From assembly GCA_028284185.1 (NCBI GenBank), contig JANQSG010000019.1:97292-161291 (forward strand): DNA of 64,000 nt, in the 5' to 3' direction. A program made the position numbers and the translations under genes. This stretch comes from Kangiella sp. (GTDB lineage Bacteria; Pseudomonadota; Gammaproteobacteria; Enterobacterales; Kangiellaceae). Positions 30,249 to 60,454 of this stretch are shown here, one piece after another (the stretch's first letter is position 1; the number at the start of each line of letters is the position of its first letter). The notes below the pieces were generated by a model that searched no databases, had not been told where the DNA came from, and saw only the letters and a program-made list of their open reading frames with translations.

Positions 30249-30270
30249 AAGCGGATCAAATGATCCGCTT
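30249..30270. terminator. Bidirectional terminator between hemY and slipin genes
   Basis: A 10-bp perfect stem AAGCGGATCA/TGATCCGCTT with a two-base loop, flanked by an A-run on the left and a T-rich stretch on the right. It lies between two convergent genes and overlaps the slipin stop codon. Confidence 0.8.
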
Positions 30271-31420
30271 AATTAATTTTATCAGAAATAGAAACCAAGC
30301 CGTTTAAAACTCCATTTAATCCATCATAAACATTAATTTTGTCTACTTTTTGAGTAACCTTTTCCAAAGTTTCTAATTCTTTTAACCGCATCAATGTAGT
30401 GTTGTTTTCCATCATTTTAGCAGTGTTGTACAAAGATCTCGTTGCGGCAGTCTCTTCTCTCCGCTTAATCAAGTTTGCTTCAGCAGCTTTTTGCGCTTGC
30501 ACCACTTGATTTAAGATCTCTTTCATCTCACCAGGCAAAATAATATCTTTAACCCCTACATTTTTTACGCTAACACCATACTCTTTCACAACGTTTTGAA
30601 TATCTTTTTCAATCACACTGTTCAAAGTACTCTTATCAGTTAACAACTCATCCAAAGACTTTGTTCCAACCGCTTCTCTTAAAGCTAATTGCATGGTTTT
30701 GTATACAAAATCCATTGCATCGCTAACCTTAGTCACTAGGGTCATAACATCCTCAACTTGATAATTAGCACTTAAGTTAATTCTCAAGCTGACTCTGTCT
30801 TTGGTTAAGATCTCTTGTCCTGATACTTCAATGTTCTGTAATTTCATATCCATAATCTTTACAGAAACATTTTGGTTATATCTCCAGTAACCATAAGTTC
30901 CAGTATCTAAGATCTGCATTACTTTTCCGTTAATAGTTAACAAACCCTTTTCCTGAGTTCCAACTTGAGCCAAGTAAATAGCATCTTGCAACTTTCTTAC
31001 CAATCCTAACTTAGCATTGCCTTGCATTAAGCTGATCACTTTCTTGCTGACTTGTTTGTCTTCTGTTAAATCATACTTTTCTACTTTCAAAGCCTGATTA
31101 GTCTTCCAATAAGTAGCATATGCGCCAGTTTCTAATACTTCGAATAATTTATTATCCACATAGATCAAAGCCACTTCTTGATCAGAAATTTCTACCACTT
31201 CAACCAAATCAGATAATTTATCTGTATATTGAGACATCAAATATTTATTTTTAACATGCTCAAATTTGATATCAGTGATGTCGTATCTATCAACTACGAC
31301 TTCATCAATTAAACTGGTGATCCAGTACTGACCAGCAGTCAAGACTCTATCTAAGTTCTTATTTCTATACACCAATACTCTTTCGTTATCGGCAACTTTA
31401 ATTTTGTTAATTCCTAACAT
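30269..31420 (-). CDS. Slipin-family SPFH/band-7 protein
   Basis: The preferred start is ATG 31420, seven bases after AGGAG. The adjacent ATG 31423 and a longer frame to 31525 (behind AAGGA) are alternatives. The 383-residue product starts MLGINKIKVADNERVLVYRN and has band-7/SPFH features: VSLRINLSANYQVED, TMQLALREAVGTKSLDELLTDK and GVSVKNVGVKDIILPGEMKEILNQVVQAQKAAEANLIKRREETAATRSLYNTAKM, the helical coiled-coil tail. Repeated GxY/GQYW-type segments precede the SPFH core. Slipins form membrane-associated oligomers. Bacterial slipin genes occur in RtcR/RtcB-type RNA-repair neighbourhoods, though no such partner is in this window. It is the last gene of the tRNA/attenuator locus upstream. Confidence 0.87.
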   Translation of the reverse strand: MLGINKIKVADNERVLVYRNKNLDRVLTAGQYWITSLIDEVVVDRYDITDIKFEHVKNKYLMSQYTDKLSDLVEVVEISDQEVALIYVDNKLFEVLETGAYATYWKTNQALKVEKYDLTEDKQVSKKVISLMQGNAKLGLVRKLQDAIYLAQVGTQEKGLLTINGKVMQILDTGTYGYWRYNQNVSVKIMDMKLQNIEVSGQEILTKDRVSLRINLSANYQVEDVMTLVTKVSDAMDFVYKTMQLALREAVGTKSLDELLTDKSTLNSVIEKDIQNVVKEYGVSVKNVGVKDIILPGEMKEILNQVVQAQKAAEANLIKRREETAATRSLYNTAKMMENNTTLMRLKELETLEKVTQKVDKINVYDGLNGVLNGLVSISDKIN

Positions 31421-31674
31421 CATATTTCTCCTTGCTGTTATTGAAATTATTAATGGCGAGGTGCCTGCCTTAATAAACTGGTATTGCAGTTTATGATAAT
31501 TCAGAATCCATAGGCTGTTCGACATACTGTCTAATCCTTTTTTTATTATTTTTCCTGCTCCATTTCATACATTCTATGGTTCGGAAACTATCACATTGAC
31601 TTAATACTCATTTATCGAGACTGATGTCTAAAGTTCTTTATCAGCAACCTTATCCATCGACACCTCTATTGTTT

Positions 31675-31727
31675 ACATAGTGGGGACTTGAACCCCAGGC
31701 TTTCGCCTTTACCGCTTTGTCACCCTA
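31675..31727 (-). pseudogene. tRNA-like fragment lacking an anticodon arm
   Basis: Read on the minus strand, a partly paired acceptor (TAGGGTG with CACTATG), a D-arm-like AAAGCGGTAAAGGC and a perfect T arm (GGGG, loop TTCAAGT, CCCC) are present in 53 nt. No anticodon stem-loop lies between the D and T parts. The D region recalls Gln-type tRNAs, but identity cannot be assigned. It may be a deletion remnant or a small tRNA-mimic RNA. Confidence 0.5.
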
Positions 31728-31733
31728 AGACAA

Positions 31734-31812
31734 TGGTTATCTTTGGTCGGAGTCGAACCGACAACACACAGATTATGAGTCTGCCGCTCTATCCACTTGA
31801 GCTACAAAGTGC
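31734..31812 (-). tRNA. tRNA-Met-like (CAT) with defective acceptor stem
   Basis: The minus strand gives D stem GCTC/GAGC, anticodon stem GCAGA/TCTGT with loop CTCATAA (anticodon CAT) and T arm GTCGG-TTCGACT-CCGAC, all well paired. The acceptor is abnormal: 5' GCACTTTG faces 3' CAAAGATAACCA, so only five pairs form and the end next to CCA is unpaired. Its 5' end nearly copies the tRNA-Asn below but with an extra T. CCA is encoded. It is either a decayed tRNA or a tRNA mimic that would not be charged normally. Confidence 0.55.
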
Positions 31813-31814
31813 AT

Positions 31815-31831
31815 CTGGATTCGCAGTCCAG
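31815..31831 (-). other. Isolated anticodon-arm-like hairpin
   Basis: On the minus strand, CTGGA-CTGCGAA-TCCAG forms a perfect 5-bp stem with a 7-nt loop having T33 and A37, as in anticodon arms (anticodon GCG, Arg). No matching D, T or acceptor arms were found around it. It lies three bases upstream of the tRNA-Met-like sequence. Confidence 0.35.
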
Positions 31832-31935
31832 TTCTTAGCAATCAATAATCTTGGTACACAGTAAAGCAAAGCTCCTGCGCCAGCCTGCATCAGATACAGA
31901 GCCGCTAATCATATTGACTATCTAAGTCGTTTATC

Positions 31936-31957
31936 GAATTGAGTAATTACTCAATTC
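31936..31957. repeat. 22-bp perfect palindrome inside the tRNA array
   Basis: The 22 bases read identically on both strands; the left arm is GAATTGAGTAA. It lies 7 bp beyond the CCA end of the Lys-type sequence. As RNA it would form a strong hairpin, perhaps a processing or pausing signal; as DNA it could be an operator. Confidence 0.6.
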
Positions 31958-31963
31958 AAAATT

Positions 31964-32055
31964 TGGTGCGTCTGGTAGGGATCGAACCCCTGCTCTTGTA
32001 GAGAGTAACCCTCCGGTTAAAAGCCGGATGCTCTAGCCAATTGAGCCACAAACGC
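31964..32055 (-). tRNA. Aberrant tRNA-Lys-like (TTT) with long variable region
   Basis: On the minus strand the acceptor GCGTTTG/CAGACGC pairs fully (one G-T), D stem GCTC/GAGC and anticodon stem TCCGG/CCGGA pair perfectly, and the loop CTTTTAA gives anticodon TTT (Lys). CCA is encoded. The variable region is about 20 nt with a CTCT/AGAG mini-stem, which real tRNA-Lys does not have, and the T stem (AGGGG with CCTAC) pairs at only two or three positions. The sequence totals 92 nt. Either an insertion has damaged a tRNA or it is a selected mimic. Confidence 0.6.
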
Positions 32056-32065
32056 TTCTTATTTT

Positions 32066-32140
32066 TGGCGCACCTGATAAGATTCGAACTTATGACTAAC
32101 TGGTTAACAGCCAGCTGCTCTACCACTGAGCTACAAGTGC
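32066..32140 (-). tRNA. tRNA-Asn (GTT)
   Basis: A complete 75-nt cloverleaf: acceptor GCACTTG/CAGGTGC (one G-T), D stem GCTC/GAGC, anticodon stem GCTGG/CCAGT with loop CTGTTAA (anticodon GTT), five-base variable loop, T arm ATAAG-TTCGAAT-CTTAT, discriminator G and encoded CCA. Discriminator G fits Asn. The acceptor stem differs from the usual bacterial TCC-type Asn tRNA, so this is probably an extra, divergent isoacceptor and not the main one. It begins 9 nt after the SEC-C gene ends. Confidence 0.8.
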
Positions 32141-32149
32141 ATTTATTTC

Positions 32150-32348
32150 TTATCGGCAGTAATAATCTCGTCTACTACCATCATATCTTCCCGTCTTCAT
32201 ACAACAGTTCTTAAAAACTCCTCCATGAACCGCAAGGACAAGGATCATTCCGCCCTAATTTTTCGTGCAATTCTTTATCTCCGTGTACCACCCTCACGCC
32301 TTTCTTTACTTGCGTTTCTGAAGGGAATCCCTTTCTACGTTTACTCAT
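32150..32348 (-). CDS. Small SEC-C zinc-motif protein, requires +1 frameshift
   Basis: The zero frame starts at ATG 32348 and stops at TAA 32213-32211 after 45 codons, ending [13 protein letters not shown]. The +1 frame continues directly with [12 protein letters not shown]... to TAA 32152-32150. Together they make a 65-residue protein with a full SEC-C zinc site: Cys37, Cys39, Cys48 and Cys49 (CxC...CC). The zero-frame product lacks the last two ligands. The junction reads GGAGG AGT TTT TAA G: a Shine-Dalgarno-like GGAGG three bases before a slippery Phe codon and a stop, the layout of the prfB shift site. The alternative is a one-base error or mutation in the T5 run. It has no good ribosome site and probably depends on the short peptide just upstream. 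Confidence 0.75.
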
Positions 32349-32352
32349 TACT

Positions 32353-32388
32353 TCAAAAGGAGTAATTCAATTTATTTTTTATTTTCAT
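32353..32388 (-). CDS. 11-residue upstream peptide with strong Shine-Dalgarno
   Basis: ATG 32388 is preceded by GGAGGTGA (32399-32392), an eight-base match to the 16S rRNA tail, five bases away. The frame reads [11 protein letters not shown] and stops only 4 nt before the SEC-C ATG. This layout suggests that ribosomes finishing the peptide reinitiate on the SEC-C gene, which has no good site of its own. The sequence itself resembles no known leader. Confidence 0.6.
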
Positions 32389-32412
32389 AAGTCACCTCCA
32401 TCTAGGAATAAA

Positions 32413-32466
32413 AAAACCCTGTTAAACTTTTGCCTAACAGGGTTTTATCCTGAGAGGCACTAGCCT
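32413..32466 (-). promoter_or_regulatory. Transcription attenuator 2 (terminator with competing hairpin)
   Basis: Read on the minus strand, segment 1:2 is the hairpin GGGAGGC/GCCTCTC with loop TAGT (near 32468-32451). Terminator 3:4 is a 12-bp perfect stem (AAAACCCTGTTA/TAACAGGGTTTT, 32446-32435 with 32424-32413) followed by seven Ts. The strand GCCTCTCAGG (32458-32449) can pair with CCTGTTAGGC (32441-32432) at eight of ten positions. That pairing would disrupt both hairpins and act as antiterminator. It follows the stop of the 48-codon ORF by about 20 nt. Confidence 0.75.
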
Positions 32467-32484
32467 CCCATAACAAGAGACCGC

Positions 32485-32631
32485 TTAAAATTCTGTGCTA
32501 TATTTTTCATCCATATTTCTTTCAATGATCGCATCCACTTGTGCATACTTGATAAAGACAGACGGGTGCACTGTTTCACCTACATTACGCAGCGAATAAT
32601 TCAAAACCAAATATTCTATAAATGTTTTCAT
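32485..32631 (-). CDS. 48-residue ORF between the two attenuators
   Basis: ATG 32631 to TAA 32487-32485, beginning MKTFIEYLVLNYSL and ending DEKYSTEF. It is preceded by a weak GGGA site. I recognise no family. It sits between attenuator 1 and attenuator 2, the same relation the 20-codon leader has to attenuator 1, so it may act as a long leader peptide, a real small protein, or both. It has no transmembrane segment and no cysteine or tryptophan. Confidence 0.5.
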   Translation of the reverse strand: MKTFIEYLVLNYSLRNVGETVHPSVFIKYAQVDAIIERNMDEKYSTEF

Positions 32632-32649
32632 AATTTTAATTTCCCAATA

Positions 32650-32719
32650 AAAAACCCCGAGAGCTTTACCTTTCGGGGTTTTTCTTATTCCGAAAGGCGC
32701 TTATATAGTAGCGCCTTTC
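32650..32719 (-). promoter_or_regulatory. Transcription attenuator 1 (terminator with competing hairpin)
   Basis: On the minus strand, hairpin 1:2 is a 10-bp perfect stem GAAAGGCGCT/AGCGCCTTTC (32719-32710 with 32701-32692). Terminator 3:4 is an 11-bp perfect stem AAAAACCCCGA/TCGGGGTTTTT (32683-32673 with 32660-32650) with a T6 run. The strand CCTTTCGG (32697-32690), in the arm of hairpin 1:2, is exactly complementary over eight bases to CCGAAAGG (32676-32669) in the terminator arm and loop. This gives a mutually exclusive antiterminator. A 20-codon leader ends 18 nt upstream, as in amino-acid operon attenuators. Confidence 0.85.
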
Positions 32720-32737
32720 TAAATCTATAGGCGCACG

Positions 32738-32800
32738 CTATGCTGGAGTTATCTCCCAGTTTTTATTCATTAGTTGATGTAAATCAAAATAGCGTTTCAT
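32738..32800 (-). CDS. 20-residue leader peptide of attenuator 1
   Basis: ATG 32800 to TAG 32740-32738. The site upstream is weak (GAGA). There is no run of one codon type. Instead the 20 residues include 16 different amino acids (all except Cys, Gly, Ser and Val), with single Trp, His, Arg, Tyr and Phe codons. If it controls attenuator 1, it would sense general translation or many tRNAs and not one amino acid. Position (18 nt before hairpin 1:2) and length fit a leader. Confidence 0.6.
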   Translation of the reverse strand: MKRYFDLHQLMNKNWEITPA

Positions 32801-32852
32801 TTTATTTCTCGTAAAAAATTTAGATTGCAAATCTCTTTTTGTGTGGCGGAGA

Positions 32853-32880
32853 ATGATACTCTACAAAAAAATAAAGTCAA
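32853..32880 (-). promoter_or_regulatory. Sigma70-type promoter of the attenuator/tRNA/slipin locus
   Basis: On the minus strand TTGACT (32880-32875) and TATCAT (32858-32853) are separated by 16 bp of AT-rich sequence. Transcription would start near 32846, about 46 nt before the leader peptide. The region after the -10 (CTCCGCC) is GC-rich, as in stable-RNA promoters under stringent control. It overlaps the last codons of the zinc-ribbon gene upstream. No sigma54 (-24/-12) site was seen. Confidence 0.7.
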
Positions 32881-33074
32881 ATATTTTTTATATTTATTTG
32901 CAAATTATTTTCTGACTCCTTTTCCTCAACTAAAACCTCTTTAAAACCACATTCGACACATTCACGCACTGGCTTTTCATCTTCTCGATAAAAAACCAGG
33001 ACATCTTGTTGGCCACAAACTGAGCATCTTGCTCCAGCAATAAATTGTTTTTTAATTTGCTTATCGTGCATCAT
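32877..33074 (-). CDS. YheV-like (DUF2387) zinc-ribbon protein
   Basis: A 65-residue protein with FIAGARCSVCGQQD and RECVECGF, two CxxC pairs forming a small zinc ribbon as in E. coli YheV. YheV function is not established. Its last residues overlap the -35 region of the attenuator-locus promoter. It is divergent from the NhaC-type antiporter gene, with start codons about 55 bp apart. Confidence 0.85.
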   Translation of the reverse strand: MMHDKQIKKQFIAGARCSVCGQQDVLVFYREDEKPVRECVECGFKEVLVEEKESENNLQINIKNI

Positions 33075-58322: not shown

Positions 58323-60424
<2,102 letters not shown>

Positions 60425-60454
60425 TCAGGCTTATTATACATTTTTATAGCAGAT

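Follow-up and report, generated by a model that had tools for sequence, protein, structure and literature searches.

A slipin operon of Kangiella sp. with leader-peptide attenuators, a SEC-C gene with two putative +1 shifts and a tRNA-like RNA, and its possible role in the response to tRNA damage

The window analyzed in this work is a 64,000-nucleotide (nt) stretch of Kangiella sp. DNA, in which the parts of a single locus, all on the minus strand, lead from a promoter at 32880-32853 at the 5' end to the end of a slipin open reading frame (ORF) at 30269. On comparison with relatives, the window carries one member of a slipin operon found in many Gammaproteobacteria. Established at the level of sequence are leader ORFs, complementary segments, +1 shift sites, a covarying RNA module and variable tRNA-like loops, together with the position of these parts 5' of slipin. 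We infer that the operon answers tRNA damage or ribosome stalling, and the locus as a whole probably serves as an emergency kit when tRNAs are damaged. Our specific reading, put forward tentatively and with somewhat less than even confidence, is that of an RtcB-free Kangiella slipin operon whose leader attenuators would open upon failure of translation and whose tRNA-mimicking RNA would serve as cleavable bait coupled to slipin.

The comparison covers 59 slipin loci, namely 27 from a genome collection, 11 from a search of 61 genomes, 20 from a sample of the class (369 genomes) and the window itself. One of them (L096) duplicates L019, which leaves 58 distinct loci, and the same-genus matches G010 and G017 were omitted because they coincide with L005 and L004, respectively, an exact check having been made for L004 only. 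The nearest relatives are the uncultured Kangiella loci L004 (88% slipin identity) and L005 (84%), and the pair of RNA and slipin recurs in relatives at about 41-48% slipin identity. The parts listed in an initial annotation of the sequence (promoter, first leader peptide, two attenuators, 48-codon ORF, 11-codon peptide, SEC-C ORF, tRNA-Asn and slipin gene) are all found where it had placed them (Table 1). Its expectation that the layout would be conserved in related genomes was checked as well: the parts recur together, with attenuators recognized in 17/59 loci and the SEC-C gene in 8/59.

Upstream of slipin a two-hairpin module recurs, for which an alignment of 22 sequences has 98.6% of cells paired and shows two-sided changes in 9 of 13 pairs. 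The covariation score of the module is 0.656, compared with 0.222 for shuffled alignments and at most 0.121 with slid partners, and RNAalifold, unaided, returns the identical 13 pairs. A covariance model of the module (R1) scores at least 32 bits in 36/59 loci, 22 of these being training members, and 18-25 bits at the correct place in nine further loci, the remainder being cut off, diverged or devoid of the module. In the class sample, all 11 matches to R1 at E ≤ 1e-4 (at least 32 bits) sit 0.4-1.5 kb upstream of a slipin gene, the module being missed or scored lower in the other 11 slipin genomes. In a sample of the phylum (398 genomes), all 5 matches at the same threshold adjoin a slipin relative; one is the window's own, two fall outside the class, and the four new slipins have 28-45% identity, with tRNA calls by ARAGORN between module and slipin. 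The two genome scans together thus give 15 significant matches (11 in the class and 4 further ones in the phylum), every one of them beside a slipin. Among class-scan matches below 26 bits, those in G303 and G363 lie at slipin loci, and those at L144, L146-L149, L151 and L152 have no slipin in the stretch examined. Rfam recognizes tRNA and a distant thiamine pyrophosphate (TPP) riboswitch alone at gathering threshold in the window, and at the module in 5 relatives no family other than tRNA at E ≤ 1. The 3' domain of the RNA, which ends a short way 5' of the slipin ribosome site, may be closed by a long-range helix; the evidence for this predicted pairing is suggestive (combined p = 0.003 over 16 chosen loci, most single loci being non-significant). 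A tRNA minihelix, consisting of acceptor stem and T-arm, was also observed just upstream of the module in L018, L021, L022, L025 and L093.

A tRNA-like domain is present within 720 nt upstream of slipin in 52 of the 57 loci whose upstream sequence is long enough (a count made without L096 and L023; the five without a domain are L029, L097, L104, L111 and L112), with one to three per locus. At least two occur in 8 loci, some of them abutting, as tandem copies with differing loops. Before the domains were counted, five rows were taken out: the Bacteroidetes locus L029, a misparsed entry of L101 and three tRNA-Asn genes that are genuine. The count used a simple stem parser that misplaced the stem in at least L062. 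Of the 62 domains so counted, 12 have CCA directly after the acceptor, or 18 if a shift is allowed (at most two bases; within the next five bases). An anticodon loop of 7 nt is seen in 41 domains, one of 6 nt in 10, one of 5 nt in 8 and one of 8 nt in a single domain, and two domains yielded no stem. Within the 41 seven-base loops we find 19 different triplets and U33 missing in 13, while the 3' side is kept (U36 in 33, A37 in 39, A38 in 36) as positions 33-35 vary; U36-A37 is the context of the N6-threonylcarbamoyladenosine (t6A) modification. The D-loop and T-loop signature is preserved. Judged by these features, the majority of the tRNA-like domains are something other than ordinary tRNA genes, with a constrained 3' side of the loop. 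The window's own domain fails a functional-tRNA test in both its acceptor stem and the placement of its CCA (Table 1), the reference being 25 other tRNAs listed in the same genome, with a full acceptor stem and CCA in place. The aberrant tRNA-like sequences of the initial annotation are therefore present, with the amendment that some are domains of one conserved RNA and that a tRNA-Lys and a tRNA-Met(CAT)-like element come in addition. Both the tRNA-Asn and the tRNA-Lys of the window carry CCA and have bodies unlike the copies elsewhere in the genome. ARAGORN reports further tRNAs in the flanks examined of 19/59 loci (16 plus the window, L004 and L005), in arrays near slipin of 13 at L062, 12 at L103, 7 at L026 and 5 at L104, and none in 40/59.

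The 17 loci with a recognizable leader ORF followed by an intrinsic terminator supplied 20 attenuators for testing, 6 of them from Kangiella, where two stand in tandem. Since the scan was incomplete and missed several cases that are plain by eye, the count does not show absence elsewhere. Outside the set of 20 are L099 and L106 (leader candidate and terminator), L008, L066, L097 and L098 (terminator without leader candidate), L029, where the long ORF is unrelated, and L013, along with the duplicate L096. All 20 share the same five-segment design at the end of the leader ORF. Segment 1 starts at −1 to +10 nt relative to the first base of the leader stop, and in 20/20 its sequence complements the 5' arm of the pre-terminator hairpin despite lineage-divergent sequence (combined p = 1.4e-12 over 10). 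When folding is followed in the order of synthesis, pairing 1:2 forms in the transcript ending after arm 2, and pairing 3:4 forms before the 3' arm of the terminator exists, in each of the 20. Against single-base shuffles, p < 0.05 is obtained for 1:2 in 18/20 (combined 4e-11 over 11) and for 3:4 in 19/20 (combined 2e-12 over 11); the 1:2 pairing of the window's attenuator 2, taken alone, is non-significant (p = 0.33 and 0.083).

A leader ORF, mutually exclusive hairpins and a terminator, recurring in relatives, are what identifies a leader-peptide attenuator, and the loci described here show them; the predicted layout fits a sensing of translation. In such a scheme, a ribosome reaching the leader stop would mask segment 1, so that arms 2 and 3 pair and the terminator forms; with no ribosome at the stop, 1:2 would form first, arm 3 would pair with the 5' arm of the terminator, and RNA polymerase would continue. 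Completion of the leader would then turn the operon off, and a ribosome that is absent or stalled early would turn it on. Promoters ahead of the leader score 11-12/12 in L004, L009, L011, L012, L017 and L026, and 7-10/12 in the remaining 9 loci scored, the window apart. A role of leader amino-acid richness as a gauge of all tRNAs was considered and dropped (2/17 leaders at p < 0.05). Leader peptides that otherwise differ end in MT-stop in 10/17 attenuator loci (L007, L009, L011, L012, L018, L019, L021, L022, L025 and L105).

The 8 loci with the SEC-C gene have two candidate sites for a +1 shift. At site 1, a short ORF preceded by GGAGG runs to TCC TTT (T/C)GA and is joinable to the SEC-C frame by +1 in 8/8 loci; at site 2, the zinc-binding end is connected to the SEC-C frame solely through +1 at TTT (T/C)AA, again in 8/8, which bears out the need for a shift that had been noted for the window. 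A sense codon replaces the stop in some loci (CGA at site 1 in 4/8, CAA at site 2 in 3/8). The 11-codon peptide exists as had been described and is joinable to the SEC-C frame by the further +1; it looks as if this peptide and the SEC-C ORF form a single gene that is read by way of two +1 shifts. The read-through product in the window (P0001) has 65 amino acids counted from an inner ATG, and in L021 the first ORF has no ATG. Relatives of the protein in a single frame exist elsewhere (1959 matches, of which the best 120 were inspected), and in one of them, P0007, both joints are in frame. Sequencing error as the cause of the frameshift is unlikely, the same site being found in 8/8 loci. The gene prfB, for release factor 2 (RF2), is a known case of +1 frameshifting, and both SEC-C sites have its hallmarks by sequence: a recurring slip codon with a stop or slow codon, and a product joined across frames. 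Programmed +1 shifting in the SEC-C gene is the likely reading, and the shifts may tie SEC-C output to slow decoding of the next codon.

The slipin protein itself is identified by its Band_7 domain (PF01145, 112.4 bits against a cut-off of 23.6). Its start is most likely at about 31420, because the matching stretch further upstream has stop codons in relatives. At L042/L069 (G024), a 530-amino-acid slipin frame partially matches the N-terminal part a second time. The earlier remark that the family is known from RNA-repair neighborhoods agrees with the neighbors found by tblastn in the flanks examined, which are RtcB in 33 of the 59 loci, RtcR in 18, RtcA in 13, RlaP in 11 and an XRE-like regulator in 9; these are lower bounds, as contig ends cut many flanks. 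Pfam confirmed representatives, the XRE-like regulator weakly (HTH_31, E = 0.005, below cut-off). A conserved 315-amino-acid protein without a Pfam match was seen near RtcB in 8/59 loci (L022:7302-8249 and relatives). In the class sample, slipin occurs in 22/369 genomes, and RtcB is present anywhere in the genome in 20/22 genomes with slipin versus 107/347 without (Fisher 2e-8), the two slipin genomes without RtcB being that of the window and G412. In the 1.1 kb preceding slipin, sigma-54-like sites are present in 10/18 RtcR loci versus 0/41 others; at the window locus no RtcR is found within the 16 kb examined, and the promoter is sigma-70-like. For the 18 RtcR loci the attenuator scan, itself incomplete, gave one terminator (L066) and zero leaders. 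Through all of these changes RNA and slipin remain neighbors, while RtcB, RtcR and RtcA move or are missing.

Taken together, we suggest that anticodon nucleases would cut the tRNA-like loops, the RNA acting as both bait and damage gauge for slipin, that RtcB and RtcA may repair the cut RNA where they are present, and that the additional tRNA genes may stand in for lost isoacceptors. A more committed version holds that one to three mimics with diversifying loops in the leader of the slipin messenger RNA directly report anticodon-nuclease attack, with the attenuators and the double-shift gene reading the same damage via the ribosome, RtcB-free in Kangiella; this version seems to us rather doubtful.

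Several observations weigh against a bait coupled to slipin under translation-sensing attenuators. Attenuators were recognized in 17/59 loci only, by a scan that also overlooked known ones, and an inner ATG makes the first SEC-C shift dispensable in 7/8 loci (L026 has no inner ATG); our confidence is reduced because of these two points. At equilibrium, folding yields the terminator with or without a ribosome at the stop in 20/20 attenuators, and the terminator still wins when arm 2 is held away. A switch between terminator and antiterminator is thus consistent with folding order in 20/20 and with equilibrium folding in 0/20, and therefore any switch must depend on the order of folding. Pairing 3:4 as a plain contiguous duplex is significant in some loci only (combined p = 3.5e-4 over 10), the leaders have no clear enrichment for varied amino acids, and the long-range helix adjoining slipin is weak. 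The retention of U36 in 33/41 loops argues that the loop is not a freely variable bait, and no anticodon nuclease was tied to the tRNA-like loops. Slipin is carried by 3/20 genomes of the genus, and the RtcB search of the window's genome returned 0 matches.

The strongest competing explanation is that of a scaffold, in which slipin would bind the tRNA-like fold at the membrane, in the manner of Ro with Y RNA, and would gather damaged tRNAs for repair, the loop being merely less constrained. This would account for the constant adjacency of RNA and slipin while RtcB, RtcR and RtcA vary in place or presence, and for the retained D-loop and T-loop signature, and it is in line with a proposal on Band-7 proteins reportedly made by Burroughs and Aravind in 2016. 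The constraint on loop positions 36-38 speaks against a loop of this kind, and a scaffold does not require the tandem copies with different loops found in 8 of the 52 loci; because of these copies we rank a pure scaffold, which we consider somewhat unlikely, below a slipin-coupled bait. The same loop and CCA statistics would also be expected of a free decoy, one that captures anticodon nucleases independently of slipin expression, and a role as competitive inhibitor is suggested for the tRNA-like domain of YrlA in the available text of PMC7790460. A free decoy could leave slipin, yet 15/15 significant module matches adjoin one; because the RNA is not found away from slipin, we again prefer the coupled bait and regard a free decoy as decidedly unlikely. 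The bait coupled to slipin is thereby placed slightly ahead of both.

It is improbable that the operon mainly provides back-up tRNAs, with the tRNA-like domains as decayed tRNA genes. The tRNA-Asn and tRNA-Lys of the window and the arrays at L062, L103 and L026 would suit such a supply, as would the Anabaena trn operon, which in the accessible part of PMC10272220 shares the TrcR regulon with rtcB and a slipin gene; against it, the tRNA-like domain is kept in 52/57 eligible loci even though 40/59 loci show no further tRNA. The remnant of a phage tRNA array beside an unrelated slipin, which the initial annotation had offered as an alternative, is hardly credible: phages commonly carry tRNA clusters, but a scan of viral contigs with two short patterns gave no slipin relative, and the RNA-slipin pair recurs across two classes.

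Should the more committed version hold, the operon would be a multi-gauge alarm for translation failure that works without RtcB in Kangiella. Cells attacked by tRNA-cutting toxins must notice the damage, and here several possible gauges are joined in one operon, each of which (leader read-through, the two shift sites, loop cleavage) is open to simple reporters. For an RNA about which little is known, the analysis further provides a covariance model together with 52 homologous loci, as well as a candidate small gene with two programmed +1 shifts. The coordinates of all parts are collected in Table 1.

Table 1. Parts of the slipin locus, in order of transcription.
Feature	Position	Strand	Basis or remark
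Sigma-70-type promoter TTGACT-N16-TATCAT	32853..32880	-	10/12 consensus match
Leader peptide 1, 20 codons, MKRYFDLHQLMNKNWEITPA	32738..32800	-	stop codon directly 5' of attenuator segment 1; similar in L004, L005
Attenuator 1	32649..32740	-	segment 1 32729-32734, arms 2 and 3, antiterminator 3:4, terminator 32649-32684
Leader peptide 2, 48 codons	32485..32631	-	38 codons in L004, 43 in L005; sequences differ
Attenuator 2	32413..32487	-	terminator 32413-32446
SEC-C gene, first part, 11 codons, behind GGAGGTGA	32353..32388	-	+1 shift site 1, TCC TTT TGA
SEC-C gene, parts 2 and 3	32150..32348	-	SEC-C ORF 32348-32211; +1 shift site 2, TTT TAA, at 32216-32211
tRNA-Asn(GUU), CCA encoded	32066..32140	-	ARAGORN and Rfam
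tRNA-Lys(UUU), 92 nt	31964..32055	-	ARAGORN and Rfam; variable-region insert, against 77 nt in both L004 and L005
Two-hairpin 5' module of conserved RNA (model R1)	31852..31909	-	covariation and covariance model
tRNA-like domain, called tRNA-Met(CAT), loop CTCATAA	31738..31811	-	5/7 acceptor pairs; CCA late by two bases
Second elbow-like piece: GGTAA, small hairpin, second T-arm	31681..31713	-	sequence comparison
3' domain, possible closing helix of GAGGTGTC (31659-31666) with GGCACCTC (31458-31465)	31458..31666	-	suggestive; p = 0.065 in window
Slipin (Band_7/SPFH) gene, likely start about 31420	30269..31420	-	AAGGAG, then ATG
Terminator-like hairpin 3' of slipin	30249..30270	-	matches on both strands

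Two other features of the window were noted: a YheV-like zinc ribbon ORF at 32877-33074, the end of which overlaps the operon promoter, and the TPP riboswitch, on the minus strand at 60304-60430.

The initial annotation knew of no described operon of this combination, a claim that is not supported as worded. A tRNA-like RNA cognate to Band-7 proteins was reportedly predicted by Burroughs and Aravind in 2016, likewise beside an SPFH/Band-7 gene in RNA repair loci; we take that molecule to be probably the RNA studied here, so that a tRNA-like RNA tied to Band-7 would be of an already known kind. In the titles and abstracts searched, a set that does not include the 2016 review, there is no account of the covarying module, the loop diversity or the attenuators, nor of a double frameshift or a form without RtcB. 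An rtc locus with a slipin-type (SPFH) gene is published for PaFlo8 of P. aeruginosa, in the portion of PMC13086221 at hand. The RtcR-controlled rtcBA operons resemble the relatives described here, which have slipin with RtcB, RtcA, RtcR, RlaP and sigma-54-like sites; the locus in Kangiella differs from them in that its genome has no RtcB and the window no RtcR, leader-peptide attenuators being present instead. As far as the available text of PMC7790460 goes, the RtcR operon responds to damaged tRNAs, and for the Anabaena regulon of rtcB, a tRNA operon and a slipin gene, the accessible part of PMC10272220 has translation inhibitors relieving repression.

Bacterial Y RNA (YrlA) with Ro/Rsr is similar as a tRNA-mimicking RNA in an RNA repair operon, and a tRNA-like domain is common to both; the RNA here differs in having no Rfam match beyond tRNA. 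Identity with Y RNA was rejected on this account and with Ro/TROVE absent in 32/34 slipin genomes, the search giving none in the window's genome and two partial hits among the 34. The proposed +1 slip at the SEC-C sites, where a U-rich codon precedes a stop or slow codon, is like that of prfB, from which the gene differs by two sites within one small gene, by the sense codons CGA and CAA in some loci, and by a Shine-Dalgarno-like GGAGGAG that stands only at site 2 of three Kangiella loci. Leader-peptide attenuators are well known from the trp and his operons, and those described here differ in their five segments, in having no run of a single amino acid, and in that termination would be favored when segment 1 is masked at the stop codon; what they share with trp and his is the leader ORF, the alternative hairpins and the intrinsic terminator.

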